Below are positions 11,791-64,000 of a stretch of 64,000 nucleotides of DNA, one piece after another. Position numbers and translations under genes: made by a program. The stretch is taken from NCBI RefSeq assembly GCF_001542625.1, contig NZ_CP016279.1:1612001-1676000 (forward strand), in the 5' to 3' direction. The DNA is from Streptomyces griseochromogenes. GTDB lineage: Bacteria > Actinomycetota > Actinomycetes > Streptomycetales > Streptomycetaceae. The notes beneath the pieces were generated by a model. The model did no database searches and had not been told where the DNA came from. It was given only the letters and a program-made list of their open reading frames with translations. How positions within the stretch are numbered: position 1 is the stretch's first letter; each line of letters begins with the position of its first letter.

Positions 11791-12726
11791 TTACCGGGTC
11801 TGCTGCGCCGGAACGCCCCGGGAGATCGGCTCGTCCTCGGCGGGGGAGCCGGCCGCGGCCACCGCGGCACCGGTCAGCGTGGCGAGCATCTCGCGGACGT
11901 TCGTCAGCTGGGCGTTGATGCTGTCGCGACGGTTGGTGAGGGCCGCGAGCTCGCGCTCGGATTCCGAGCGGATGCGGTCGGCCTTGGCGTTGGCGTCGGC
12001 CACGATGTCCTCGGCCTGGCGCTGGGCCGTCTCCACCGTCTGGCGGGCGCGGCGCTCGGCGTCGGTGCGCAGCTTCTCGGCCTCCAGGCGCAGCTGCTCG
12101 GCGCGGTGCTCGATCTCGGCGAGGCGCTTCTCGGCCTTCTGCTGACGCGAGGCCAGGTCGCGCTCGGACTGCTCGCGGCGCTTGGCCAGGTTCGTCTCGA
12201 AGTCGGCGGCGGCCTGCGCGGCCTTGGCGCGGGTCTCCTCGAAGAGGGCGTCCGCCTCCTCGCGCTTGGACTGCGCGTCCTTCTGGGCCTCGGCACGCAG
12301 CTGCGAGGCGTCACTCTTGGCCTTCTCGACGATCCGGACGCCCTCGTCCTCGGCCTTGGCCTTGCGCTCCGCAGCGAACGATTCTGCGTCGTTGCGTACC
12401 TGCTGGGCCGCCGACTCGGCGAGCTCGCGGTGCTGCTCGGCCGCGCGCCTGGCCTCCTCGCGCAGATCCTTGGCCTCTTCCTCGGCGAGGCGCAGGATCT
12501 TCTCGACACGCGCACCGAGACCGGCGTACGACGGCTCGGCGTCGGTCACCTGGGCCTGGGCGTTCTGCGTCTCGAGGTGGAGCTCCTCGATGCGCTTTTC
12601 CAGAGCGGTGATGCGGGCGAGAGCGCTGTCACGGTCGGAGACGAGCTTGGAGATCCGTTCGTCCACCTGAGCGCGGTCGTACCCACGCCGCACAAGCTCG
12701 AAGCCGTAGGGGGAAGTGTCGCTCAT
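11791..12726 (-). CDS. filP: FilP-like filament-forming coiled-coil protein
   Basis: A 311-residue, almost entirely coiled-coil protein rich in Ala, Glu, Arg and Lys. It has a short DivIVA-like N-terminus (YGFELVRRGYDRAQVDERIS) and a Pro/Ala-ended tail. Length and sequence style fit FilP of Streptomyces (about 310 residues), which forms an intermediate-filament-like network near hyphal tips, gives mechanical strength and interacts with DivIVA. Older annotations call it a cellulose-binding protein. It is immediately downstream of scy on the same strand with a 182-base gap, the arrangement known in S. coelicolor. Confidence 0.9.
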   Translation of the reverse strand: MSDTSPYGFELVRRGYDRAQVDERISKLVSDRDSALARITALEKRIEELHLETQNAQAQVTDAEPSYAGLGARVEKILRLAEEEAKDLREEARRAAEQHRELAESAAQQVRNDAESFAAERKAKAEDEGVRIVEKAKSDASQLRAEAQKDAQSKREEADALFEETRAKAAQAAADFETNLAKRREQSERDLASRQQKAEKRLAEIEHRAEQLRLEAEKLRTDAERRARQTVETAQRQAEDIVADANAKADRIRSESERELAALTNRRDSINAQLTNVREMLATLTGAAVAAAGSPAEDEPISRGVPAQQTR

Positions 12727-52682: not shown

Positions 52683-53339
52683 TCAGCGGATGACGCCCTG
52701 ACGCACGAGCAGGTCGCGGATGCCGGTGACCTTCTCCGCGCCGAGCCGGCGCCGGGCGATCTCCGCCTCGTCCTCGACCTGGTGTCCGTACTGCCACCAG
52801 GCGTCGCCCGTCTCGTTGTTCATCACCACGAATCGGTCCTTGGCCGCCGGACCGCGGACGATCAGCGACGTGGTGTCCGGCACCGCGGCGACCGAGTGCA
52901 CCAGGGTGTGACGGATCACGTAGCCGGTGCCGGGCGTCTCGTCCCGCACCAGACAGGGCCGGCCGATCTTGGTGTGGGTGGTCAGGTCCTCGTAGTCCCC
53001 GTAGAGATAGTGGCGGTAGCTGCCTGCCAGCACCCGGTTGCCGAAGGTCCAGCGGTGGTTGTGCGGGCGGTCGAACTCCCGCTGCCGGAAGACGTGGAGC
53101 CGCACCCGTACGCCGCTCGCCGCGTCGTTGACCAGGACCACCCGGTCCAGTTCCTGCAGCCGCTCGCTCTGCACCAGCAGCTCGGGCGTCGCCAGCACCT
53201 GGTCGAAGGCGGCGCTGAGCCACTCGGACGTGGCCAGCTCGTCCAGCAGTCCCGAGAGCTGGTCGTGCAGGACCGCGAGATCCTCCCAGTCGAGTTTGGC
53301 CAGCCGGGCCGGATCAATCAGTTCGTTGCCTGCGGTCAT
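52683..53339 (-). CDS. Cupin-like putative metalloenzyme
   Basis: A 218-residue protein whose centre looks like a cupin: REFDRPHNHRWTFGNRVLAG gives the H93-x-H95 metal motif, and RHTLVHSV gives H148 for the second motif. The first 60 residues are helical. It resembles the uncharacterised cupins found in natural-product operons, which may be Fe(II) dioxygenases, epimerases or binding proteins. Its start overlaps the MOSC stop by four bases (ATGA). It is the sixth gene of the leftward operon. No specific reaction can be assigned. Confidence 0.7.
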   Translation of the reverse strand: MTAGNELIDPARLAKLDWEDLAVLHDQLSGLLDELATSEWLSAAFDQVLATPELLVQSERLQELDRVVLVNDAASGVRVRLHVFRQREFDRPHNHRWTFGNRVLAGSYRHYLYGDYEDLTTHTKIGRPCLVRDETPGTGYVIRHTLVHSVAAVPDTTSLIVRGPAAKDRFVVMNNETGDAWWQYGHQVEDEAEIARRRLGAEKVTGIRDLLVRQGVIR

Positions 53340-54046
53340 GCGATCTCCTCCACTCTCTCCGCGGCCGTCGCGCGGGGGTCGCCTTGTTCGTGCACGCGGT
53401 GCGTCCGCCGTTGCAGTTCGATCCAGTCCCGCGCCTTCTGCTGGATCTTGGGGAGCATCTCGGGGGCCTCCAGCATCCGGGGCAGCAGCTCGCGCTCCGT
53501 GGTGATGGCCCGGAGCATCAGATTCACCGTGATGCCGTGCCCCGGCCGCTTGATCACCTCGATGGCCTCACCGGGTGACACGGCCCCCTCGGTGAGGACC
53601 CGTAGGTAGGCACCCGGAGCGCCGTGTGCGATGAACCGTTTCACCAGGTCGGGGACGTCCCAGAAGCCGGCGAAGACCCGGCAGGGCTTGCGCGGGCGGA
53701 TCACCTCGAACACGGCTTCCCCGATCCGCCACTGTTCGCCGATCTCGGCGCCGGTGATGTCGATGCCGACGGTGGAGAAGTTCTCGCCGAAGTTTCCGGG
53801 GCCGACGGTCCGGCCCAGCTCCTTCTCCCAGAAGACCGCGTCCTCGCGCGCGAACGCGTACACCGCCTTGTCGACACCGCCGTGGGCCTTCGTGTTGACG
53901 ATCAGATCCCCGTCCAGGCCCGTCGCCCGAGCCCACACGGGACCCGGCACCGGCCGCTTGTCGATGCCGCTGCGCCCGTTGGAGGTCCAGGGTCCGGTGC
54001 GCTCCACGCCGAGGTTGACGGTGAGCAGCCGGGCCTGGCCCGTCAT
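53336..54046 (-). CDS. MOSC-domain protein, YiiM-like
   Basis: A 236-residue MOSC protein with the core DGDLIVNTKAHGGVDKAVYA, FGENFSTVGIDI and the Mo-cofactor-binding Cys C122 (IRPRKPCRVF), plus a C-terminal 3-alpha extension as in YiiM. YiiM proteins are molybdoenzymes that reduce N-hydroxylated compounds such as 6-hydroxylaminopurine. In an operon headed by an AurF-like N-oxygenase, such a reductase could trim over-oxidised nitrogen or protect the producer (inference). It overlaps the NDK-like gene before it and the cupin gene after it by four bases each. Confidence 0.87.
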   Translation of the reverse strand: MTGQARLLTVNLGVERTGPWTSNGRSGIDKRPVPGPVWARATGLDGDLIVNTKAHGGVDKAVYAFAREDAVFWEKELGRTVGPGNFGENFSTVGIDITGAEIGEQWRIGEAVFEVIRPRKPCRVFAGFWDVPDLVKRFIAHGAPGAYLRVLTEGAVSPGEAIEVIKRPGHGITVNLMLRAITTERELLPRMLEAPEMLPKIQQKARDWIELQRRTHRVHEQGDPRATAAERVEEIA

Positions 54047-54999
54047 CGGGGTCCGCCCCACTCGGCCGTCACGTTCGGCACACTCGGGCTGAGCCCGGGG
54101 ACGTTCATGACCTTCAGCAGGTGTGTGATCACCGTCAACAGGTCCCAGCGGTGGGGGTCTTCGTACGACACACCCTGCGTGACGGTCATCACATCGGTCA
54201 CGGTGATGTCCTCGCCGGCTGCCCGGCGCGCCGCGAGCCGGCCCGGGGCTCCGGGCGCCCCCGCCAGCCGTTTCCAGCTCAGCCCGTAGTCGAAGTCGTG
54301 CGCCGGATGCCTGCGTTCCAGAGCGTCGAACAGGGCCAGGACCTCGGGAAGGGCGTCGTGGTCGCCGAGGATCCGCTCGCGCATGAGGTCCCGCCGTGCG
54401 TCGTCGCACAGGACCGCGATCTCCCGGAACACGTCGATCGGCTCGTCCGAGCAGTGCATGAAGTTGAACAGGCCGTTGACCACGCCCAGTTGATGCCGCA
54501 GGTGCTGGGGCAGGCGCTCGCCCGGGTCGGCCGGTCCCTTCAGGGAGTTGAGCCGGATGGCGGCGGGCATGCGTCCCGGCTGCCACTCGGTGTCCTTCAG
54601 GACCAGGCACACGGTGTCGGTGGTGGGAAGGATCAGGTCCATCGCCTCGACCCGTTCCGGTGTCGCGAGGTTGAAGTGATGGCGCCACACTTCCCGGATG
54701 GTCAGCCGGTCGTGGCGGAAGGCCACCACGTCGACGGGCCGAAAGCCCGCGCCGGCGAGCGCCCGGACCGCGGGGCGCAGGCGCCGGCCCGCGGTGGCCT
54801 CGGCCTTGAGCATGCACAGAGTGATGCCCAGCATCCGTGGAAGATCCCCGCCGAAGGTCCAGCACGCCTCGCGGAAGTACTGTTCCACGGCGTACATCCG
54901 GGCCTTCTCGGACGACCAGGTGACCTGTTCCAGAATGTCCTGGCCGACCTCGCTCAGGGGCTCCTGGTCCGGCAACACGTCGGACAGCACGTACTCCAC
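54043..54999 (-). CDS. Nucleoside-diphosphate-kinase-like protein (copy 1)
   Basis: A 318-residue protein with an embedded NDPK-like core: K65 in LCMLKAEATAGRR (the KPD Lys region), LKGPADP (the nPadp motif), R168 in HLRHQLG, and NFMHCSDEP with N179, H182 and S184 matching the NxxHGSD active site that carries phospho-His. N- and C-terminal extensions of about 55 and 120 residues are not part of classical NDPKs. It is paralogous to the protein at 56030. It starts with GTG 54999. It may phosphorylate a nucleotide-like or other intermediate. The homology was read by eye. Confidence 0.7.
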   Translation of the reverse strand: MEYVLSDVLPDQEPLSEVGQDILEQVTWSSEKARMYAVEQYFREACWTFGGDLPRMLGITLCMLKAEATAGRRLRPAVRALAGAGFRPVDVVAFRHDRLTIREVWRHHFNLATPERVEAMDLILPTTDTVCLVLKDTEWQPGRMPAAIRLNSLKGPADPGERLPQHLRHQLGVVNGLFNFMHCSDEPIDVFREIAVLCDDARRDLMRERILGDHDALPEVLALFDALERRHPAHDFDYGLSWKRLAGAPGAPGRLAARRAAGEDITVTDVMTVTQGVSYEDPHRWDLLTVITHLLKVMNVPGLSPSVPNVTAEWGGPR

Positions 55000-55010: not shown

Positions 55011-56033
55011 TCAGGACCTCGAAGCGCCCGCCGGCACACCACGGACACCCGCCGGGTCACCGAACGCCGCGAGGAGGAACGCCACCTCGGCCTGGCGGTG
55101 ATATCCGTTGGGCTCGGCGTGCCCGGCGTACGGCCACACACGGATCTGCTTCGGCCCCGCGTAGTGCTGATAGGCCGCCGCCACGGAGGCGGGCGAGCAG
55201 ACCTGATCCCGCAGCGCGAGCGAGAACAGTGCCGGGCATGCGGCGCGAGAGGCCATCGCGACCCCGTCGAAGTGGGCCAGCGTCGTGAGCGCCCGATCGG
55301 TGTGGTGCGGATGGAACTGGCAGAACCGCAACAGCTCGCGATAGGGCTGCCGGTCGGGAAACCTTGTGTGGTCGGCCACGTCGCACAGGAAGGGGGACTC
55401 CACGAGAGCCGCCGCCACCCTGCCGTGCAGCGCGGCTGCCGCGAGGGCCAGCAGACCACCCTGGCTGCACCCCGACACGGCGACGCGCTCCGGATCCACC
55501 GCCTCGTGCGCGAGGGCCGTCTCCACCGCCCGTACGGCGTCGACGTAGGCGTCCCGGTAGTAGTACGCGTCCGGATCGAGCAGGCCGCGGGTGATGAATC
55601 CGGGTACCTGCGGCGGCCGGACACCCACCGGGTCGGGGGTGTTTCCGGGCCGGAGGTTCGCCCCGCCCTGTCCGCGCGTGTCGACCACCAGGGTCGCCAT
55701 GCCGACGGCGGGCCACAGCAACCAGTCCAGCGCCGCGCCACGTCCTTCGCCGTAGCCCAGGAACTGGACCACGCACGGCACACGGGTCCGCGTGCCCGGG
55801 GCGGGCCCGGCGGGCCGGGGCACGATCAGCCAGGCCGCGATGCGATGGCCGTGCGCGCCCGCGAAGGACACATCGTGGACCGTGGCGGCCGCGAGGGGGC
55901 CGGGTGTCTCGGCGAAGACGGGATCCAGAGGGTGCGCCTCCGACGCCAGGGTCCGGCGCCAGAAGGCATCGAATCCGGCCGGCGTCCGGTGCGCGGCCCG
56001 CCTCGTGGCCAGTTCCTCCGGCAGCTCGTTCAT
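55011..56033 (-). CDS. Acetyl-xylan-esterase-like alpha/beta hydrolase
   Basis: A 340-residue AXE1/cephalosporin-C-deacetylase-type hydrolase. The triad is S190 (VAVSGCSQGG), D276 (ALRDQVCSP) and H305 (PYAGHAEPNG); the RGQGG element (DTRGQGGANLRPGN) that forms part of the oxyanion site is present. It has no signal peptide, so it acts inside the cell, most likely removing an acetyl or other acyl group from a cluster intermediate. It lies between the two NDK-like genes, overlapping the upstream one by four bases. Confidence 0.87.
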   Translation of the reverse strand: MNELPEELATRRAAHRTPAGFDAFWRRTLASEAHPLDPVFAETPGPLAAATVHDVSFAGAHGHRIAAWLIVPRPAGPAPGTRTRVPCVVQFLGYGEGRGAALDWLLWPAVGMATLVVDTRGQGGANLRPGNTPDPVGVRPPQVPGFITRGLLDPDAYYYRDAYVDAVRAVETALAHEAVDPERVAVSGCSQGGLLALAAAALHGRVAAALVESPFLCDVADHTRFPDRQPYRELLRFCQFHPHHTDRALTTLAHFDGVAMASRAACPALFSLALRDQVCSPASVAAAYQHYAGPKQIRVWPYAGHAEPNGYHRQAEVAFLLAAFGDPAGVRGVPAGASRS

Positions 56034-57001
56034 GCGCCGACCGCCGCGGTGTCCTGCCAGGCGGAGAGCAGCACGTTGGCGAAGATGCGGCCGATGCCGG
56101 GCTCGTTGAAGCGCAGGGTGTGCGTCAGCACGCTGAGCAGGTCCCAGTGGTGTGCGGGACCGGCCGAACCGTCCCTGACCGCCCGGGCCACGGCCCGCAC
56201 GGGGATCTCCTGTCCTGCGGCACGGGCCCGTGCCAGGTCACCGACGTGCCCAGGGGCCTGGGCGAGCCGCCGCCAGCTGTTCTCCAGGTCCAGATCGTGC
56301 TCGGCGACCTGCGCCTCCAGGTCGTCGAACGCGTCCGCGGCCTCGGGGAGGGCGTCGTACCCGTCCAGGACCCGGGCGCGCAGCAGCTCGCGGCGCTGCC
56401 CGTCGCACACGATGGCGATCTCCCGCATCACGTCGATGGGCTCGTCCGAGGTGTGGGTGAAGTTGAACAGGCCGTTGACGGCGCCGAGTCGGCTCCGCAG
56501 GTGTTCCGGCCTGCGCTGGGCGGGGTCGGAGGGCCCCTTCAGAGCGGTGAGCCGGACGGCGGCCGGCACCCGGCCCGGGGCCCACCGCTCGTCCTTCAGG
56601 ACCAGGAGCACGGAGTCCGCCGAGCCCAGGACCAGATCCATCGCGTCGATGCGCTCGCCGCTGGCGAAGTTCAGCTGGAAGCGCCAGGTCTCCCGGACGG
56701 TGAGCCGGTTGTGCCGGAAGCGGACCACGTCGACCGGTCTGAAGCCGTTGTCCCGCAGCGCTTCGAGCGCCCGGCGGTAGCGGCGGCCCGCCGCGGCCTC
56801 GGGCTTGAGCACGCACAGCGTGATGCCCAGCACCGCGTCCAGGTCGTTCCCGAAGAGCCGGCTGCTCTCGCGGAAGTAGTTGTCCACGCCGTACAGCCGC
56901 GCCTTCGTGGCCGAGCGGGTGACCGCCGCGATCAGTGCCGGGGGGATGTCGTGGAACGCGTCGGTCGCGTGCGCCGTGCCGAGGCTGGTCTGCGTGTTCA
57001 C
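56030..57001 (-). CDS. Nucleoside-diphosphate-kinase-like protein (copy 2)
   Basis: A 323-residue paralogue of the protein at 54043. NDPK-like features are K66 (VLKPEAAAGRR), LKGPSDP, R169 (EHLRSRLG) and NFTHTSDEP with N180, H183 and S185. Copy 2 keeps the KPE sequence closer to canonical KPD than copy 1. The shared C-terminal region (HHWDLLSVLTHTLRFNEPGIG here, HRWDLLTVITHLLKVMNVPG there) is a domain I do not recognise. It starts with GTG 57001 behind AAGGA and is second in the leftward operon after the N-oxygenase. Two copies may form a heteromer or act on successive intermediates. Confidence 0.7.
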   Translation of the reverse strand: MNTQTSLGTAHATDAFHDIPPALIAAVTRSATKARLYGVDNYFRESSRLFGNDLDAVLGITLCVLKPEAAAGRRYRRALEALRDNGFRPVDVVRFRHNRLTVRETWRFQLNFASGERIDAMDLVLGSADSVLLVLKDERWAPGRVPAAVRLTALKGPSDPAQRRPEHLRSRLGAVNGLFNFTHTSDEPIDVMREIAIVCDGQRRELLRARVLDGYDALPEAADAFDDLEAQVAEHDLDLENSWRRLAQAPGHVGDLARARAAGQEIPVRAVARAVRDGSAGPAHHWDLLSVLTHTLRFNEPGIGRIFANVLLSAWQDTAAVGA

Positions 57002-57033: not shown

Positions 57034-58014
57034 TTACAGTGCGAGCCCGGCGGTCAGCCCGGCGGCGTGAAAGGCTTCGCGGGTCGCCGGTTCGTCCAGG
57101 GCGCCGACCTCCGCGAAGTAGCGGATGGTGGTCCGGCTCGCCTCGGCGACGGACGCGCGCACGCTGTCGCCCGGATACGACTCGGCGAGCACCGTCTCCG
57201 CCTCGGTGCCGGTGAGCCCGGCCGTCAGCAGCGAGTCGCGGATCGCCCCGTAGTCCGGTTCGAGGAACGTGACGACCAGCTCCGGCAGCCACGGGCCGAG
57301 CCGGCTTCGCTGACGGGGACTCAGCGAGTGCCAGAAGTACTTGAGGACGCTGCGGAAGTAGGCGTGGTGCTTGCCCTCGTCCTCCGAGTGGTCGCGGACC
57401 ATCTCGCGCACGGCTTCGGGCAGTCTGCGGTCCTGCGGGAGGTCGGCGAGGATGGCCGAGATCAGCGTCTCGCTGACGATGCAGAAGGCCAGTGACTGGA
57501 CCCCGCGCAGCTCCGCCTCCATCGCCTCCCGGATGACATCGAGCCGCCGCACGAAGGAGGGCTCGGTCAGGTGGAGGGGGACCGCGGTCTCGGCGGCCAC
57601 CTGGGCCATCAGGTCGTAGGAGAACTGGGCGTGCCACGCCTCGTCGGTGGTGATCTTGAAAGCGTCCTCGCGCATGGCGGCGGTCAGCCGCAGGTCGTCC
57701 TGGCCACGGCTGAGGCTCAGCGTGACGGGCAGCACGGCGACGGACTCCAGCTCTGTTGTGAAATGCAAGTACTGGTAGAGCCGCTGCACGAGCAGGTGCC
57801 GCACCAGCCCCGGCTCGCCCGCCCGCACGATCGGATGCGACACCACAGGCACGAGTTCAGGCGGGAAATACACCTGCTCATCCGGCACCCGACCGAGTAC
57901 GCGGCGCGGTTTGACTCGTACGCTCGCTCGCCGGTCCCAGTTTGCAAATTTGCTTCTGTAGTCGTCGACGACTGCAGACTCCGGACCTGCAAATAGTGAC
58001 CGTTTTGCAGACAT
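57034..58014 (-). CDS. AurF-like di-iron N-oxygenase
   Basis: A 326-residue protein of the p-aminobenzoate N-oxygenase (AurF/CmlI) family. The ferritin-like di-iron ligands line up: E90 (TTELESVAV), E125 and H128 (TTDEAWHAQF), E182 (VSETLISAIL), and H209, E213 and H216 (DHSEDEGKHHAYF). Such enzymes oxidise an amine to hydroxylamine, nitroso or nitro. It is first in the ten-gene leftward operon, so N-oxygenation is probably central to the product. I use ATG 58014. There is no Shine-Dalgarno, but a TAGTGT -10-like element ends 8 bases before the ATG, so a leaderless message is possible. Confidence 0.87.
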   Translation of the reverse strand: MSAKRSLFAGPESAVVDDYRSKFANWDRRASVRVKPRRVLGRVPDEQVYFPPELVPVVSHPIVRAGEPGLVRHLLVQRLYQYLHFTTELESVAVLPVTLSLSRGQDDLRLTAAMREDAFKITTDEAWHAQFSYDLMAQVAAETAVPLHLTEPSFVRRLDVIREAMEAELRGVQSLAFCIVSETLISAILADLPQDRRLPEAVREMVRDHSEDEGKHHAYFRSVLKYFWHSLSPRQRSRLGPWLPELVVTFLEPDYGAIRDSLLTAGLTGTEAETVLAESYPGDSVRASVAEASRTTIRYFAEVGALDEPATREAFHAAGLTAGLAL

Positions 58015-58449
58015 GGCCAATGACACTAGGTCAAGCTCCGCGCGCAAGTAAAGGGAATTCCGGTGACCTGCTAATAACCCAGGAACCGGTATCCCCGATT
58101 CCGGGACTGCTCTCGATGAGTTTTTAGTCAAGGAGGTGGCGATTTTGGGAGGCCTGTGGCCAATCGGACATAAGGGCGTTGGTCGCGAATTTACCTCCCG
58201 GCAGGGTGTTGACTCCCCGCTTCGTGATCGAATAGAAAGGTAACGAAGCGAGTTCGGATATACCTCCGGACTTGCCAGGCACGGGGGTTAGGCCACCGCT
58301 GGTTCGCTCGTTCTCTGGGCGTTGCGGGTTGTGCTGATCGGTGTTGTTCGGACAAGGGTGAACTCCGCCCCTGACCCGGCTCGTTGACGGGCCGGCGACA
58401 CACCTGTGTGGATGAGCCCCCTCCGATTGAAATGGGGAGGTGAAGAGCC
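58015..58449. promoter_or_regulatory. Divergent promoter region of the biosynthetic operons
   Basis: No gene is firmly supported in this 435-base spacer between the N-oxygenase gene and the 22-residue peptide gene. Rightward, TTGACT (58209-58214)-18-TAGAAA (58233-58238) is the best promoter, implying a leader of about 200 bases. A nearer TTGACG at 58384 has a poorer -10 and overlaps a CACAC-CT-GTGTG palindrome (58399-58410). An AAGGAGG at 58130-58136 precedes a possible TTG-initiated 32-codon frame (58145-58243) of doubtful reality. Confidence 0.6.
58209..58238 (+). promoter_or_regulatory. Candidate promoter of the peptide/AsnB operon
   Basis: TTGACT and TAGAAA are separated by 18 bases, a good match to the Streptomyces vegetative consensus. 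It points at the peptide gene at 58450. Predicted by eye only. Confidence 0.5.
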
Positions 58450-58518
58450 ATGAAGAAGTACATCAAGCCGTCCGCCAAGAAGGTGGGCACGGGCACCATC
58501 CTGTCGAACGCCGTCTGA
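58450..58518 (+). CDS. 22-residue lasso-leader-like peptide without a core
   Basis: A very short gene with one of the best ribosome binding sites in the window (GGGGAGGTGA, 58434-58443, 9 bases from GGAGG to ATG). The peptide starts MKKYIKP and ends TILSNAV. It carries the YxxP motif (Y4, P7) followed by G13, with the Y-to-G spacing of 9 seen in lasso leaders that bind PqqD-like recognition elements (the usual Leu two residues after Pro is Ala). In lasso precursors a core of 15-25 residues would start about where this peptide ends; here the stop comes at residue 23. It has five Lys and no Asp, Glu or Cys. It is followed by a strong hairpin and then the AsnB-like gene, as precursor genes are. 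Confidence 0.82.
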   Translation: MKKYIKPSAKKVGTGTILSNAV

Positions 58519-58542
58519 TCTCGGATGACGCTTTGACAGTTG

Positions 58543-58572
58543 TGCGTCACGCCCGGAAACGGGCGTGACGCA
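58543..58572 (+). terminator. Attenuator/terminator hairpin after the peptide gene
   Basis: A perfect 13-bp stem (58543-58555 with 58560-58572, TGCGTCACGCCCG type) capped by a GAAA tetraloop starts 24 bases after the peptide stop and 74 bases before the AsnB-like start. It most likely gives partial termination and 3'-end protection, so that peptide mRNA exceeds enzyme mRNA, the usual arrangement in RiPP operons. Confidence 0.85.
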
Positions 58573-58645
58573 TCGCCGCGTGGTGGCTGGTTTGACGTGG
58601 CGGAAATTCGTGCCTTCGGTATTGCATGGGAGCGAGGTAAAAGGA

Positions 58646-60859
58646 GTGTGCGGCATTGCTGGCATAGCAAGGATTGATGGGAACGATCTGTCCCAGGAGG
58701 CCGACAGTCTCCTCGCGGCATTCGCGCACACACTCGCTCACCGAGGCCCCGACGACCGCCGCATCCTCCGCGAGGGGCCGGTGGGGATGGCGTTCAACCG
58801 ACTCTCCCTGGTCGACCCCGATAATGGCGCCCAGCCCCTGGTCAGCGCAGATGGAAAAGTCGTCCTCATCGCCAATGGTGAGGTGTACAACCATCGCGAA
58901 CTCGCCGCCGGTCTGCCGGGTGTCCGGCTGAGCACCGGTTCCGACTGCGAGGTCCTTCTCTACCTGTACCAGCGCGACGGTCTGCGCTTCCTGGACCAGG
59001 TGAACGGCATGTTCGCCTTCGTCCTGTGGGACAAGGAACGCCAGGTGCTGCTGCTGGGGCGCGACCGCTTCGGCATCAAGCCCCTGTACTTCCACCGCAA
59101 CCGTGCGCGCGTCGTCTTCGCCTCGGAGATCAAGGCCCTCTTCTCGGACGCCGCCACCCCGCGACGCCTGGACTGGAACCGTGCGCTCGGCGAGTACGAC
59201 ATGAACGCGACGCCCGTGTTCGCGCACGGCCGCGTCACCACCTGGTTCGAGGACATCGAACTCGTCCCGCCCGGCGTGATCGTCGAGCTGAGCCTCAAGG
59301 ACGGCACCTCCGCGGAGCACCGCTACTGGCAGCTGCCCCAGCCCGACGCGACGTCGGACCTGTCGGACGACGAGTACGCCACCGTCTTCCGGGACCTGCT
59401 CGCGGCCTCCGTCGCCGACTGCGCCACCGCCGACACCGATCTCGGCCTCTTCCTCAGCGGCGGCATCGACTCCGCCGCGGTGGCGGCGCTCGCCCCCGGC
59501 AGCACACTGCAGACCTTCACCGCCCTGACACCGGGCACCGTCCTCAACGGTGACGCACGCGGCGGCCACCGCACCGCCGAACTGCTGGGCCTGCCCAACC
59601 ACCAGGTGCTCATCGGATCCGACCGGCTTCCCGGACCGCAGGAATGGCGCGATCTGGTGTGGCTGGCCGAGACCCCCCTGGTCGGGCCGGAGATCTTCTA
59701 CAAGTCCGAGCTGCACCGGTTCGCCCGCCGGCACTTCCCGGACATCAAGGGCATGCTGCTCGGTGCCGCCGCGGACGAGATCAACGGCGGGTACACCCCG
59801 CAGTTCGCCGGCGAGGGCGGCGACTGGGACGACTTCGAGTCCAACCTCCGCGATCTCTACCGACGGCAGGCCCTGGAGCGCAACCCGAAGCTCGGACACT
59901 GGTGGGAGCACAACGGCGTTCCGCTCCTCAACGACGCGGCCATCGACCCCTCGACGCCCTACGCGGACGACCCCTACACCGGCTACTTCACCTGGCAGTA
60001 CCGCACGCTGGAGCAGTACAACGTCTGGCACGAGGACCGGACCGCCGCGGGCGTCGGGACCGAGGCCCGCGTCCCCTTCCTCGACCACCGCCTGGTCGAG
60101 CTCGTGGCCCGGATCCCCGCGCGGCGCAGGGCCGCGCTGGTGTGGGACAAGCGGATCCTCCGCGAAGCGATGAAGGGCGTCCTGCCCGAAGAGGTGCGCA
60201 CCCGGCCCAAGGGCTACTTCTTCTACGGCGAGGGCGCCCGCCACACCAACCGGTTCTTCACCCGTCTCCTCGCGCAGAACGGCGCCGAGTTGCTGGAGCA
60301 GGCCCTCTCCACCGAGAACGCCCGCCGTCACCTGGACGCCGACGGCATGCGCACGGCTCTCGGCGAGCTCTCCCGCAGCCCCAACACCAACAACGTGGAG
60401 CTGTTGCTCAGGCTCGTCAACCTCGGCCTGCTCGACGTCATGACCGCACAGCTGCCGGCGCCGCCCGTCGAGGCCGCCCCCCGTCCGCAGCCCGTGGAAC
60501 TCAGGGTGACCGACTGGGATCAGGAGGCGCGGGACATCGTCGCGCAGGTGGTCACGGAGCCGGAGATCCCCCGGCAGACCGTCTACGCGCTCGCCGACAA
60601 CGCTCTCCTGGTCACCGCGCCCACCCTGCCGGACACCTGGTTCGTCGTGGTCGACGGCGGCTTCGAGTACGAGATCTCCGCCACGGACGACGCCGCATGG
60701 CTCGCCCTTCTCCGGACTCTCGACGGCACCCTCACGCTGGCCGAGGCCCTGACGAAGACGGGCGTCGAGTTCACCGACGTGGCCGAGCTGTTCCACGAGG
60801 CCCTGGCCGTCGGTCTCGTCACGGCGCGGTCCGACGACGGGGAACCGGCGAAGCGATGA
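58646..60859 (+). CDS. Asparagine-synthetase-like amide-forming enzyme with PqqD-like C-terminus
   Basis: A 737-residue protein. The class II glutaminase domain is complete: Cys2 directly after the start (CGIAGIARIDG), HRGPDD, NGEVYNHREL, TGSDCEVLL and RDRFGIKPLYF. The synthetase domain has the ATP-binding SGGIDS (271-276), GAAADEINGGY and EARVPFLDHRLVE. The last 115 residues (from about 621) read like a PqqD/RRE winged helix (LRTLDGTLTLAEALTK, then ELFHEALAVGLV). The GTG at 58646 is chosen because it exposes Cys2. It adenylates a carboxylate and forms an amide with ammonia or an amine. Lasso cyclases belong to this family, but the adjacent peptide has no acidic side chain to activate. Confidence 0.88.
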   Translation: MCGIAGIARIDGNDLSQEADSLLAAFAHTLAHRGPDDRRILREGPVGMAFNRLSLVDPDNGAQPLVSADGKVVLIANGEVYNHRELAAGLPGVRLSTGSDCEVLLYLYQRDGLRFLDQVNGMFAFVLWDKERQVLLLGRDRFGIKPLYFHRNRARVVFASEIKALFSDAATPRRLDWNRALGEYDMNATPVFAHGRVTTWFEDIELVPPGVIVELSLKDGTSAEHRYWQLPQPDATSDLSDDEYATVFRDLLAASVADCATADTDLGLFLSGGIDSAAVAALAPGSTLQTFTALTPGTVLNGDARGGHRTAELLGLPNHQVLIGSDRLPGPQEWRDLVWLAETPLVGPEIFYKSELHRFARRHFPDIKGMLLGAAADEINGGYTPQFAGEGGDWDDFESNLRDLYRRQALERNPKLGHWWEHNGVPLLNDAAIDPSTPYADDPYTGYFTWQYRTLEQYNVWHEDRTAAGVGTEARVPFLDHRLVELVARIPARRRAALVWDKRILREAMKGVLPEEVRTRPKGYFFYGEGARHTNRFFTRLLAQNGAELLEQALSTENARRHLDADGMRTALGELSRSPNTNNVELLLRLVNLGLLDVMTAQLPAPPVEAAPRPQPVELRVTDWDQEARDIVAQVVTEPEIPRQTVYALADNALLVTAPTLPDTWFVVVDGGFEYEISATDDAAWLALLRTLDGTLTLAEALTKTGVEFTDVAELFHEALAVGLVTARSDDGEPAKR

Positions 60860-61647
60860 GCACCGCGCCCGCGACATCCCCCGCCGCCGACGGCACCGGT
60901 CCGCTCGCGCACGCCTTCGACCGCGCGGCCTGGCCGCCGCGTCCCGTCCGCCTGCTGTCGGCAGCCGTCATGGTCGCCTTCGCCGTTGCCCTGTGGCACC
61001 TCGGCGGCACCTGGCGGGCGGGTGCCGGGCTGGTCCTGGCGGACGCGCTGGCGGGGCTGTTGCCCTGGCGCATGCCGCGCACCCTGCGCAAAGGGGCCGC
61101 GTACTGGGGTGAGAACGCCATCGCCCTGGGCGTGCCGATCGCCTTCGTCGCCGTCGCCGCGGGCACCGGCGCTCCCTGGCTCACCCAGGGGACGGCCTGG
61201 TGGTGGTACGGCGTGGCACTCGCCCTGGCCGTGGTGCTGCTGCTCGCCGGCGGAATGAACTTCCGCCTGCTCTTCTCGGGGGATCTCGCCTTTCTGCTGG
61301 GGCCCAGCACTCCGCTGCAGGCCAGAACGCGGGCTCTCACGGGGACGCTGACCCCGTTCGGCGAGGAGGCGCTGTACCGGTCGCTGGCCGTCACCGCGTC
61401 CGGCCCCTTCGGCGTCCTTGCCTCGGTGCTGGGCGCCGCGGCCTTCATCGCCCGTCACCACGTCGGCGACAGCAAGTGGCGCACGGCCCCGCGGGTCCTG
61501 GCGACGGAGCTGCTGGCGGCCCTGTCCCTGCTGGCGCTGGTGGCGTTGTCGGGGTCGGTCTATCCGGCGCTCGTGGCCCACCTGATCAACAACGCGCCGT
61601 CCGTACTGCTCGAACTCCAGCGCTCACAGAAAGACAGCCATGACTGA
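60856..61647 (+). CDS. CPBP-family intramembrane metalloprotease
   Basis: A 263-residue membrane protein with about seven helices and the CPBP (Rce1-like) motifs: EExxxR at E170, E171 and R175 (FGEEALYRSLAV), FxxxH-like FIARHH (H201/H202) and HxxxN at H242-N246 (HLINN). These glutamyl-type proteases cut near C-termini or remove leaders at the membrane. In this operon it takes the place of the transglutaminase-like B2 leader protease of lasso clusters and may release the product from the peptide or act in export or immunity. It overlaps the AsnB-like gene by four bases and the next gene by eight. Confidence 0.87.
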   Translation: MSTAPATSPAADGTGPLAHAFDRAAWPPRPVRLLSAAVMVAFAVALWHLGGTWRAGAGLVLADALAGLLPWRMPRTLRKGAAYWGENAIALGVPIAFVAVAAGTGAPWLTQGTAWWWYGVALALAVVLLLAGGMNFRLLFSGDLAFLLGPSTPLQARTRALTGTLTPFGEEALYRSLAVTASGPFGVLASVLGAAAFIARHHVGDSKWRTAPRVLATELLAALSLLALVALSGSVYPALVAHLINNAPSVLLELQRSQKDSHD

Positions 61648-62416
61648 GACATCGTCATCCCAACTGGCCGAGTTGCGCGGCCAAGGGCTGCTCCCGGCGG
61701 AGCCTCTCTGTATCTTCCAGGCCGGCTCCATCGTGCGGGGCTGGGGGAATCCGACCAGCGACGTGGATCTGTTCGTCATCACCGACGGAGCATGGAGCGC
61801 ATCGGTCGACACCGCCCCGATCCCGCTGGGTGCCGGCTTCTTCCAGGCGGTGGAGGCGTACCTGGACGGGACCCGCTGCGACATCCGGCTGCTGACCGAT
61901 GATCAGATCGATGCCGTGCTGGCCAAGGTGTCCCACGAGGCGTTCGAAAGCGCCGTGGGGGAGGGCGTCCAGCTCGACCGCCAGGAAACGGTGCTCCTGG
62001 AATGGCTCCGGCACGGCGTGGCCGTGGAGAACGCGGAGTGGCTGAAGCGGCGCGCGGACCAGCTCACCTCCTCGGCCTTCGGCGCCGTACTGGTGCAGCG
62101 TGGCCTCAATTACGCCGACTCCCGCGTCGAGGACGCCGTCGGGCAGATGTCGGTCGGCGACCTGGAAAGCGCGGTGCTGTCGGCGCACGGGGCGCTCGGC
62201 TATGCCGTCGACGCGCTGCTCGCTTCCTACGGCGAATACGGCCAGAACCCGAAATGGCGGGCCAGGCGATTCCGCGCCGTGACGCAGTCCGTGCTCTCCT
62301 TCGACGCGTACTGGGCGCTGGAAACCATGCAGACCTTCGACCCCGCTGATCCGGCCGCCTGGGTCGACGAGGTCCTTCCCGTGTGCCGCAAGATCTCCAT
62401 GGAGGTGGTCCTCTGA
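61640..62416 (+). CDS. Minimal nucleotidyltransferase
   Basis: A 258-residue protein with the Pol-beta-type NTase motif GS(10)DxD: G29-S30 (FQAGSIVRGWGNPTSDVDLF), D41, D43, and a third Asp at D81 (TRCDIRLL). The C-terminal half is helical (HEPN-like in size, though without a clear RxxxxH). Genes of this kind accompany AsnB, PqqD and kinase genes in paeninodin-type lasso clusters. It could nucleotidylate the peptide, the growing product or a resistance target. It is the third enzyme gene in the rightward operon, coupled at both ends by overlaps. Confidence 0.83.
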   Translation: MTETSSSQLAELRGQGLLPAEPLCIFQAGSIVRGWGNPTSDVDLFVITDGAWSASVDTAPIPLGAGFFQAVEAYLDGTRCDIRLLTDDQIDAVLAKVSHEAFESAVGEGVQLDRQETVLLEWLRHGVAVENAEWLKRRADQLTSSAFGAVLVQRGLNYADSRVEDAVGQMSVGDLESAVLSAHGALGYAVDALLASYGEYGQNPKWRARRFRAVTQSVLSFDAYWALETMQTFDPADPAAWVDEVLPVCRKISMEVVL

Positions 62417-62697
62417 TGACGGACAACCCGGAACTCTCCGGCGACCAGGTCCCCTCGTGCCGCCCCGACGTCCGGGTGCGCAACGTACGGGGAACGTTCC
62501 TGGTGGCCGTGGCCAACAACGCGTTCGAGCTGTCCGAGAGCGCGGGCTTCATCTGGAAGCACATCGACGGGCGCCGATCGATAGCCGATATCGCCCGACT
62601 GCTGGCCGGCGAATACGGCATCGACGAAGAGGCGGCACTTCTCGACACCAAGGAGATGTTCGAGTTTCTCGCGGCCAACGGTTCGGTCCGGTTCTGA
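62416..62697 (+). CDS. PqqD-family RiPP recognition element protein
   Basis: A free-standing 93-residue PqqD/RRE protein: CRPDVRVRNVRGTFLVAV, then NNAFELSESAGFIWKHIDG, RSIADIARLLAGEYGI and EEAALLDTKEMFEFLAANGSV, the beta-winged-helix order of PqqD. RREs bind the YxxP region of leader peptides and hand them to the modifying enzymes. Its presence directly supports the 58450 peptide as a real substrate or carrier. The start is ATG 62416, sharing one base with the NTase stop (TGATG). Confidence 0.9.
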   Translation: MTDNPELSGDQVPSCRPDVRVRNVRGTFLVAVANNAFELSESAGFIWKHIDGRRSIADIARLLAGEYGIDEEAALLDTKEMFEFLAANGSVRF

Positions 62698-62749: not shown

Positions 62750-64000
62750 ATGAAAACTTCCGTACTCACCGCACATGAATGGCTGACGCCACGTGGGACC
62801 GAATCCTCCTCCGTGATCTGGAACGAGGGACGGCTCACGGTCGCCGAGCCGGCCGCGGCCGACGTCGCGGGTTCCGACGGCTACTTCGTGCCGAGCCTGC
62901 CGGTCGAGGTCCACTGCCACGGCCTGGGCGACGTCGACTTCTCCGACTTCAGCCGGATGGACCTGAAGCAGCTCAACGAGGCCGCCCGGGGCGAAGGGAT
63001 CGTCTGCATCCCCACGCTCTACCTCCGGCAGGAGCGGCTCGACGACTTCGTCGTGTTCATGCGCGAGTTCTCGCAGATGCGCGACGACGGCACGCTTCCG
63101 TACGTGGGAGCCATGGCCCTCGAGGGGCCGCTGGTCGCCAGCTTCGGGGGCACCCCGGCCAGCTCCGTGTGGGCGCCGTCGCGCGAGGAGTGGGCCAAGC
63201 TGGCCTCCTGCGGTCCGCTCGGCCTCGTCTATCTGATGCTCTCGCCCGACGCCCTGACCCCGGGATCGTACGTCGCACCTTCGCTGCCGGCCGGCTACCC
63301 GGACCTGGAGTGGATCGTCACCACCCTGGTCGAGGCCGGAGTGCGTCCGGCGCTGGGCCACTTCACCCGCGAGGACCCCCAACTGGGCGCCGACTGCGTG
63401 GAGACGGCGATCGGCGCGGCGGAGGCCGCCGACTTCCCCGGCGACGGGGTCCGCGTGATCACGGACCACCTGTTCAACGAGATGCCGCTGCTGATCAAGC
63501 ACGCCTTCCGCACCTCCCGGGCCAAGGCCGAACGCGACCGCGTCATCGCCTCGTACGACCTTCCGTCGTGGAACCTCGCCGACCTGCACGAGCAGATCGG
63601 TCCGGTCCCCGCGACGATCATCCGGGCCGCACACGCCGGCCGGATCACCGCCTGCCTCAACTTCGACGGCGAGCACGTGGACTTCGCCATCGCACGACGA
63701 GCCGTCGAGCTGGCCGGGCCCTCGAACATGATGCTCATGACCGACCGCAGCGACACCGCGAACCTCGGCGGCCAGCACCTGCACCGCGAGGCGGAGAACT
63801 CGCTGTGGTACCAGCACGAGGGTGTCGTGGCCGCCGGTACGCAGCCCATCGACAAGCAGATCGCCAACGTCCGGAGCCTCGGTGTGCCGGAGTCCGACAT
63901 CTGGCACCTGGTCTCCTTCACGGCCCACCGCACCTTCTTCCCCGAGGCGGACCTGCTCAGCAAGGCCCCGGAGCGCGGCTGCTTCGTGCTGGGGGACGGC
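62750..64000 (+). CDS. NagA-like amidohydrolase (runs off the right edge)
   Basis: The first 417 residues of an amidohydrolase-superfamily protein resembling N-acetylglucosamine-6-phosphate deacetylase. Metal and catalytic residues are kept: H55-x-H57 (VEVHCHG), E125 (ALEGPL), H204 (LGHF), H240 (DHLFNEM) and D332 (MTDRSD). The general sequence is divergent from housekeeping NagA, so the substrate may be another N-acylated or cyclic-amide phosphate. GGAG lies 5 bases before ATG 62750; the gene is 52 bases downstream of the PqqD gene, on the same strand. No stop codon is reached by position 64000. Confidence 0.82.
   Translation, partial: MKTSVLTAHEWLTPRGTESSSVIWNEGRLTVAEPAAADVAGSDGYFVPSLPVEVHCHGLGDVDFSDFSRMDLKQLNEAARGEGIVCIPTLYLRQERLDDFVVFMREFSQMRDDGTLPYVGAMALEGPLVASFGGTPASSVWAPSREEWAKLASCGPLGLVYLMLSPDALTPGSYVAPSLPAGYPDLEWIVTTLVEAGVRPALGHFTREDPQLGADCVETAIGAAEAADFPGDGVRVITDHLFNEMPLLIKHAFRTSRAKAERDRVIASYDLPSWNLADLHEQIGPVPATIIRAAHAGRITACLNFDGEHVDFAIARRAVELAGPSNMMLMTDRSDTANLGGQHLHREAENSLWYQHEGVVAAGTQPIDKQIANVRSLGVPESDIWHLVSFTAHRTFFPEADLLSKAPERGCFVLGDG

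Follow-up and report, generated by a model that had tools for sequence, protein, structure and literature searches.

The peptide gene and its surroundings

The window analysed here is a stretch of 64,000 nucleotides from the 10.76 Mb single-contig genome of Streptomyces griseochromogenes (contig NZ_CP016279.1; G000:C1:1612001-1676000). Towards its right-hand end lies the gene of a probable carrier peptide of only 22 residues, MKKYIKPSAKKVGTGTILSNAV, followed on the same strand by the genes of an AsnB-like amidotransferase, a membrane protease, a nucleotidyltransferase and a PqqD-type protein with the fold of the recognition element (RRE) of ribosomally synthesized and post-translationally modified peptides (RiPPs). 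The gene of an AurF-type diiron N-oxygenase lies ahead of it on the opposite strand. The coordinates of all features are collected in Table 1.

A preliminary description of this DNA, made from the letters alone, had pointed to a near-ideal Shine-Dalgarno sequence before the peptide and a hairpin after it. Both are present: GGAGGTGA is a perfect ribosome-binding site, and the hairpin is probably a partial terminator or a stabiliser of the mRNA.

Table 1. Features at the peptide locus, in positions of the window
Feature	Position	Strand	Remarks
Ribosome-binding site, GGAGGTGA	58436..58443	+	6 nt ahead of ATG
22-codon putative carrier peptide gene, MKKYIKPSAKKVGTGTILSNAV	58450..58518	+	ATG 58450, TGA 58516-58518 (stop = codon 23); YxKP motif
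Hairpin separating peptide stop and AsnB start	58542..58573	+	14-pair stem, one G-U
AsnB-like amidotransferase	58646..60859	+	glutaminase and adenylation sites intact
RRE-like C-terminal domain of AsnB	60578..60826	+	predicted
AurF-type diiron N-oxygenase	57034..58014	-	PF11583, 79.3 bits (cut-off 29.6)
CPBP/CAAX-type membrane protease	60856..61647	+	PF02517, 29.6 bits (cut-off 22.4)
Nucleotidyltransferase	61640..62416	+	PF01909, slightly below cut-off
PqqD-type RRE protein	62416..62697	+	PF05402
NagA-like protein	62750..64000	+	weak NagA match; extends 21 bases beyond window

Conservation of the 22-mer among relatives

Relatives were collected by searching with the window AsnB, which was found in 13 of 394 genomes of a family sample (E <= 1e-100), in 23 of 392 genomes of a genus sample (E <= 1e-120, 24 places) and in 3 of 394 genomes of a class sample, its own genome counted each time. 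The AsnB of one relative, L030, was found in 11 of 391 genomes of an order sample, the window genome included; one relative search returned just a single distant relative. Removal of repeats left 36 AsnB loci. A motif pattern built from known copies, with the length left free, was applied to the first 33 of these; it matched 35 copies, spread over 32 loci, and nothing else in the 1,295,102 strand-bases of these loci. G1085 and G704 add one copy each. Two outcomes named in the preliminary description as fatal to it, namely relatives in which the leader is fused to a core of 15-25 residues and a short open reading frame (ORF) that relatives do not keep, are not seen, since 34 of the 36 AsnB loci have the 22-mer and none of its 37 copies has a core beyond residue 22. 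All 37 stop at residue 22 counted from the motif ATG, and the peptide does end where a core would normally start. Several copies have an in-frame GTG three codons upstream, within the ribosome-binding site, and it is therefore the spacing of Tyr4 and the stop codon that is strictly constant.

The peptide can also be found without its enzyme. A profile of 31 distinct peptides, searched without AsnB over the 394 family genomes (taken as the same genome set as in the AsnB search), gives matches over the full length, at E <= 3.8e-8, in 12 genomes, each of which belongs to the 13 with AsnB. The peptide thus occurs in 12 of 13 AsnB-positive vs 0 of 381 AsnB-negative genomes (Fisher p 5e-22), and the claim that the short ORF is a real gene is confirmed by the profile alone. 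The thirteenth AsnB-positive genome, G017, is the home of the outlier locus L034. Weak matches away from AsnB occur in G203 (E 0.011) and at G316:C61 (E 0.032), and a match cut off by a contig edge occurs in G112 (E 1.1e-4). A chance ORF, considered as an explanation of the peptide, is ruled out by this blind search.

Residues M1, Y4, K6 and P7 are invariant among the 31 distinct peptides, and K10 and V12 are nearly so. Base conservation is 0.735-0.763 within the ORF vs 0.41 over the next 40 nt and breaks off at the stop codon, which itself varies (TGA 23, TAA 7, TAG 4; 34 of 35 copies). The three codon positions are conserved about equally (0.735, 0.742 and 0.763) in this GC-rich DNA, a comparison that is no dN/dS test. 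At the C-terminal end, with tandem and near-identical copies counted, residue 22 in 34 copies is R (10), V (8), A (8), T (5), K (2) or C (1), and residue 21 is V (14), N (9), L (5) or another residue (6).

The peptide starts 148-242 nt upstream of AsnB in 31 of the 32 motif-positive loci. L062 has two copies about 5 kb from AsnB with different C-termini (SGNA and VNGA), L070 has three tandem copies with identical or near-identical C-termini, and the single copy in L115 lies 6.3 kb upstream of AsnB. Such distant and tandem copies point to a product that acts in trans. The gap between peptide and AsnB contains a stem of at least nine pairs in 23 of 32 loci, the stem sequences differing between loci, and 28 of the 32 gaps reach z <= -2.5 against shuffles that preserve base content only. 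A core split off to another place in the operon was not found in the family clustering, a weak test that covers ORFs of at least 55 residues.

The 22-mer is missing from two AsnB loci, L034 and L116, and neither has a nucleotidyltransferase or PqqD gene within 60 kb. The AsnB of L034 is 37-38% identical, and the locus is counted as a miss. A coreless peptide of 21 residues with a lasso-like YxxP motif, MKKYVAPRVVEVRQATVLGGH (L034:5481-5546), lies 3.7 kb upstream of this AsnB, with no AurF, nucleotidyltransferase or PqqD gene near it; it may represent a third type of coreless leader. In L116 (G869), where the 60 kb searched has no 22-mer either, the AsnB (43%) adjoins an AurF (39%).

Partner enzymes and two nitrogen modules

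The window AsnB scores 308.5 bits against TIGR01536 (cut-off 267.1), as a glutamine-dependent AsnB should, and Cys2, the SGG[IVL]DS loop and the Glu378/Tyr383 pair are kept in all 34 aligned AsnB sequences. Its best fold match is the hydroxyamidotransferase TsnB9 (PDB 7ylz). The C-terminal tail is predicted, with moderate confidence, to be an RRE-like domain; a Foldseek search with the tail gives no match at E <= 0.001. Residue 292 is Ser in 11 of the 12 enzymes whose peptide has a basic last residue and Thr in all 22 others (33 of 34 consistent), a covariation that is post hoc, being the best of 1787 traits, with both traits changing three times on the tree.

Because the ORF caller mis-called some genes, the presence of partners was counted by tblastn. 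The nucleotidyltransferase, whose GS-D-D motif is conserved in 19 sequences and for which no solved relative was found below E 0.08, is present in all 34 peptide loci (32 of 32 over 23-60 kb, plus L115 and L117). PqqD is present in 33 (31 of 32 over 23-60 kb, L027 being the one without it, plus L115 and L117). Together with the occurrence of the peptide in 12 of 13 AsnB-positive vs 0 of 381 AsnB-negative genomes, these counts uphold the proposal that the RRE and AsnB-like genes are tied to the peptide. The protease that the preliminary description placed in the same system is no constant member of it: the CAAX protease lies near the peptide in just 4 of 32 loci, plus L117, and was rejected as a fixed part. 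The PF05402 protein in the window, the near-constant PqqD and the invariant Y4 and P7 suggest an RRE-guided, RiPP-like system with a core of at most two residues.

AurF is found in 29 of the 34 peptide loci (27 of 32, plus L115 and L117), including that of the window. The residues that we take to be its diiron ligands (E, E-H, E, H-E-H), an assignment consistent with the alignment to 3chh, are conserved in 95% or more of 23 sequences. In the remaining five loci (L029, L030, L031, L069 and L074) no match to AurF turns up within the stretches searched, of up to 60 kb, and all five of their peptides end in Val-Arg; MKVYIKPEAKKVDQGTIVAAVR is a 22-mer predicted to be loaded by FzmA or by the L030 AsnB. 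All five have genes for glutamine-synthetase-like, amidase, acetyltransferase and adenylosuccinate-lyase-like proteins, and four also have a hypothetical protein of the 592-residue type, a phosphoenolpyruvate (PEP) mutase and a methyltransferase gene that adjoins AsnB. The hydrazine genes of fosfazinomycin (FzmN-FzmR), as given in the accessible text of PMC6133997, comprise glutamine synthetase, amidase, hypothetical protein, acetyltransferase and lyase. The fosfazinomycin-type set of five hydrazine genes and PEP mutase is complete in four of the five Val-Arg loci, G589 being without the hypothetical protein and the PEP mutase.

PqqD and the nucleotidyltransferase lie within the same stretch as the hydrazine genes in all five, and in four the row runs nucleotidyltransferase, PqqD, Streptomyces antibiotic regulatory protein (SARP), lyase, acetyltransferase, hypothetical protein, amidase and glutamine synthetase; a SARP also appears in the fosfazinomycin-type gene set in the part of PMC12692060 consulted. 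In the 27 AurF-type loci (23-60 kb) the glutamine synthetase, hypothetical protein, acetyltransferase and lyase have no match at E <= 1e-15, with a 36% amidase match in L059, and the 60 kb around the window's peptide holds none of the genes of the fosfazinomycin-type set. PEP-mutase-like ORFs of about 50% identity were observed in two AurF-type loci (L033 and L071), a hint at phosphonate products there too. At the level of sequence, the system is marked by its strict length, its YxKP motif, its linkage to AsnB, nucleotidyltransferase and PqqD, its intact active sites and its two nitrogen modules. Read in the same way, it is linked to fosfazinomycin-type genes, and its sub-types are separated only by the nitrogen module, AurF vs hydrazine genes.

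Other genes around the peptide are less constant. A homologue of the NagA-like protein occurs in 8 of 33 loci, and the NagA-like gene is followed on the same strand by a gene for an exporter of the major facilitator superfamily type. Just past the end of the window (L022, about 12050-12250), a short ORF after the NagA-like gene has a CxCH...CxxC cysteine pattern and by eye resembles a BFD-type [2Fe-2S] ferredoxin. The products of 54043-54999 and 56030-57001 in the window are paralogues that share 56% identity and weakly resemble nucleoside diphosphate kinase; at the cut-off used, 11 of 33 loci have homologues of them. That of 52683-53339 is a cupin-like protein with a PHNH motif by eye and no Pfam match; its homologues occur in 12 of 33 loci, often in two copies. 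In two AurF-type clusters the AsnB and nucleotidyltransferase genes are followed by those of a LanM-like protein (DUF4135 and LANC_like; L023:3656-6865 and its counterpart in L055) and of a quinolinate phosphoribosyltransferase.

Probable carrier role and relation to known systems

Fosfazinomycin A carries Val-Arg, and fosfazinomycin B only Arg. FzmA releases hydrazine from glutamylhydrazine, and neither condensation with free arginine nor its adenylation was seen, according to the accessible text of PMC6133997; the later part of the pathway is called not yet confirmed in the corresponding text of a 2025 preprint (PMC12154649). Since FzmA is inactive on free arginine and asparagine-synthetase-like enzymes act on peptide C-termini, the simplest reading is that the acceptor would be the C-terminal arginine of the 22-mer.

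More generally, the 22-mer is probably a carrier: AsnB would load a nitrogen nucleophile on its C-terminal carboxylate, and a small nitrogenous molecule would be built on this end and then cut off. In such a scheme the RRE domains would grip the YxKP part of the peptide, and AsnB would adenylate the last residue (Val22 in the window) and deliver either ammonia from glutamine or a ready-made nitrogen nucleophile, which would give a C-terminal amide, hydrazide or similar group. In the five Val-Arg loci the nucleophile would be hydrazine from glutamylhydrazine, and a ribosomal peptide would be the place where fosfazinomycin's arginine hydrazide forms. In the sub-type of the window, AurF would oxygenate the nitrogen, before or after loading. 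Since PqqD adjoins the nucleotidyltransferase in both sub-types, the latter may also act on the peptide, which PqqD would present to it for activation or capping. Proteolysis would finally free the last one or two residues (Val or Ala-Val in the window) as the modified product, for export.

The preliminary description had proposed a reusable or sacrificial carrier for the assembly of a small molecule, and no precursor that itself becomes the product. A peptide coreless by design, and a carrier role as its probable explanation, fit the data from relatives. The second half of the proposal probably needs amending: the last one or two residues likely enter the product, because only R, V, A, T, K and C occur as residue 22 and all five hydrazine loci end in Val-Arg.

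Several observations weigh against the carrier role as set out here. The last residue of the peptide varies, the loci have no release protease in common, and unrelated folds reach the same Z as RRE for the AsnB tail. The clusters called fosfazinomycin-type were identified by gene content, and Val-Arg is also the end of the peptide in one AurF-type locus, L061. Three of the five Val-Arg loci have a FemAB-like gene, and a fourth has a weaker match to it; its enzyme might add Val from tRNA, in which case the Val need not derive from the peptide. In L116, which has AsnB and AurF and no peptide, the pair may work peptide-free.

Three other roles and one accident were considered. The whole 22-mer may be an inert, reusable scaffold, with the product built past residue 22 and hydrolysed off; this is unlikely, though it has a precedent in the scaffolds of peptide aminoacyl-tRNA ligase (PEARL) pathways, at least as outlined in the accessible text of PMC12715798, and agrees with the missing core and the variable last residues. 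It leaves unexplained why only six different residues occur at the last position, why their class is tracked by AsnB residue 292 in 33 of 34 cases, and why Val-Arg ends the peptide in all five hydrazine loci, whose pathway needs argininylhydrazine. That AsnB acts on a free small molecule, and that the peptide serves in allostery, targeting, signalling or immunity, is rather improbable: canonical AsnB-like enzymes do use small substrates, and L116 dispenses with the peptide, but the RRE-like tail and PqqD, the fixed distance from motif to C-terminus and the inactivity of FzmA on free arginine all speak for a peptide substrate. A strong ribosome-binding site on a short ORF, then a hairpin, then an enzyme gene is also the arrangement of a translational attenuator of the AsnB operon; this is very doubtful, because cis attenuation as the main role is contradicted by the copies about 5 kb (L062) and 6.3 kb (L115) upstream and the tandem twos and threes (L062, L070), and because the YxKP motif, the constant length and PqqD in 33 of 34 loci would not be expected of it. 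A lasso precursor cut short by the loss of its core, suggested by the lasso-like YxxP...G spacing and the AsnB and PqqD genes nearby, has hardly any probability left, since the relatives, coreless in 37 of 37 copies, contradict decay and the lasso-cyclase cut-off is missed.

The carrier role, if correct, would account for the published inactivity of FzmA towards free arginine and close a gap in fosfazinomycin biosynthesis. It is somewhat more probable than its opposite that the chemistry is widespread in Streptomyces, an RRE-bearing AsnB loading hydrazine, ammonia or hydroxylamine on a 22-residue handle with a core of one or two residues. Fosfazinomycin would then be a disguised RiPP, and the products of the 29 AurF-type loci would form a family of N-oxygenated amino acids or dipeptides, set by the last codons of the handle. 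The combination of a 69-nt ORF, an AsnB with an RRE-like tail, PqqD and nucleotidyltransferase also offers a handle for genome mining of pathways without a recognisable core. In the literature searched by title and abstract opening, a scope that leaves most subscription journals outside, neither a ribosomal peptide in fosfazinomycin biosynthesis nor a coreless precursor with AsnB and AurF was found.

Although the system shares a YxxP leader motif, a PqqD-type RRE and an AsnB-like enzyme with lasso peptides, the lasso-type assignment of the preliminary description has to be given up. There is no core, the glutaminase Cys is present, and the window AsnB reaches only 200.1 bits against the lasso-cyclase model NF033535 (cut-off 525). 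The cluster has no B2-type protease (PF13471); the window genome has three, the nearest more than 1 Mb away. Fosfazinomycin biosynthesis has in common an AsnB homologue with a working glutaminase (PMC6133997, in its accessible text) and, in the five Val-Arg relatives, the hydrazine genes, along with PEP mutase and methyltransferase in 4 of 5 each. It differs in that its description, as far as that same text goes, gives no role to a ribosomal peptide, PqqD or nucleotidyltransferase, and in that the window has AurF in place of the hydrazine genes.

TsnB9 and Afn14 transfer hydroxylamine and hydrazine. TsnB9, from the trichostatin pathway, resembles the window AsnB in fold and in moving an N-O nucleophile from a glutamyl donor; its acceptor, however, is a small molecule, and the window AsnB has the extra RRE-like tail. 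The asparagine-synthetase-like enzymes PesC, TsrC and ScdTA amidate or nitrilate peptide C-termini according to the accessible text of PMC13060819, where the ATP- and glutamine-dependent transfer of nitrogen to a peptide C-terminus and the Glu-Tyr pair are the same, whereas their peptides have real cores and the present one stops at the leader, in company with AurF or hydrazine genes. In the PEARL pathways of the pearlins and ammosamide (AmmA), as PMC12715798 describes them in part, a small molecule is likewise assembled on the C-terminal end of a ribosomal peptide and set free afterwards. Here an AsnB-type enzyme takes the place of the aminoacyl-tRNA ligase (no LanB-like PF04738 match was found among the genes run against Pfam, a run not aimed at that family), the peptide has 22 residues in total, and its last residues are probably part of the product. 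An AsnB-based route would thus join the few systems that build small molecules on a peptide scaffold.
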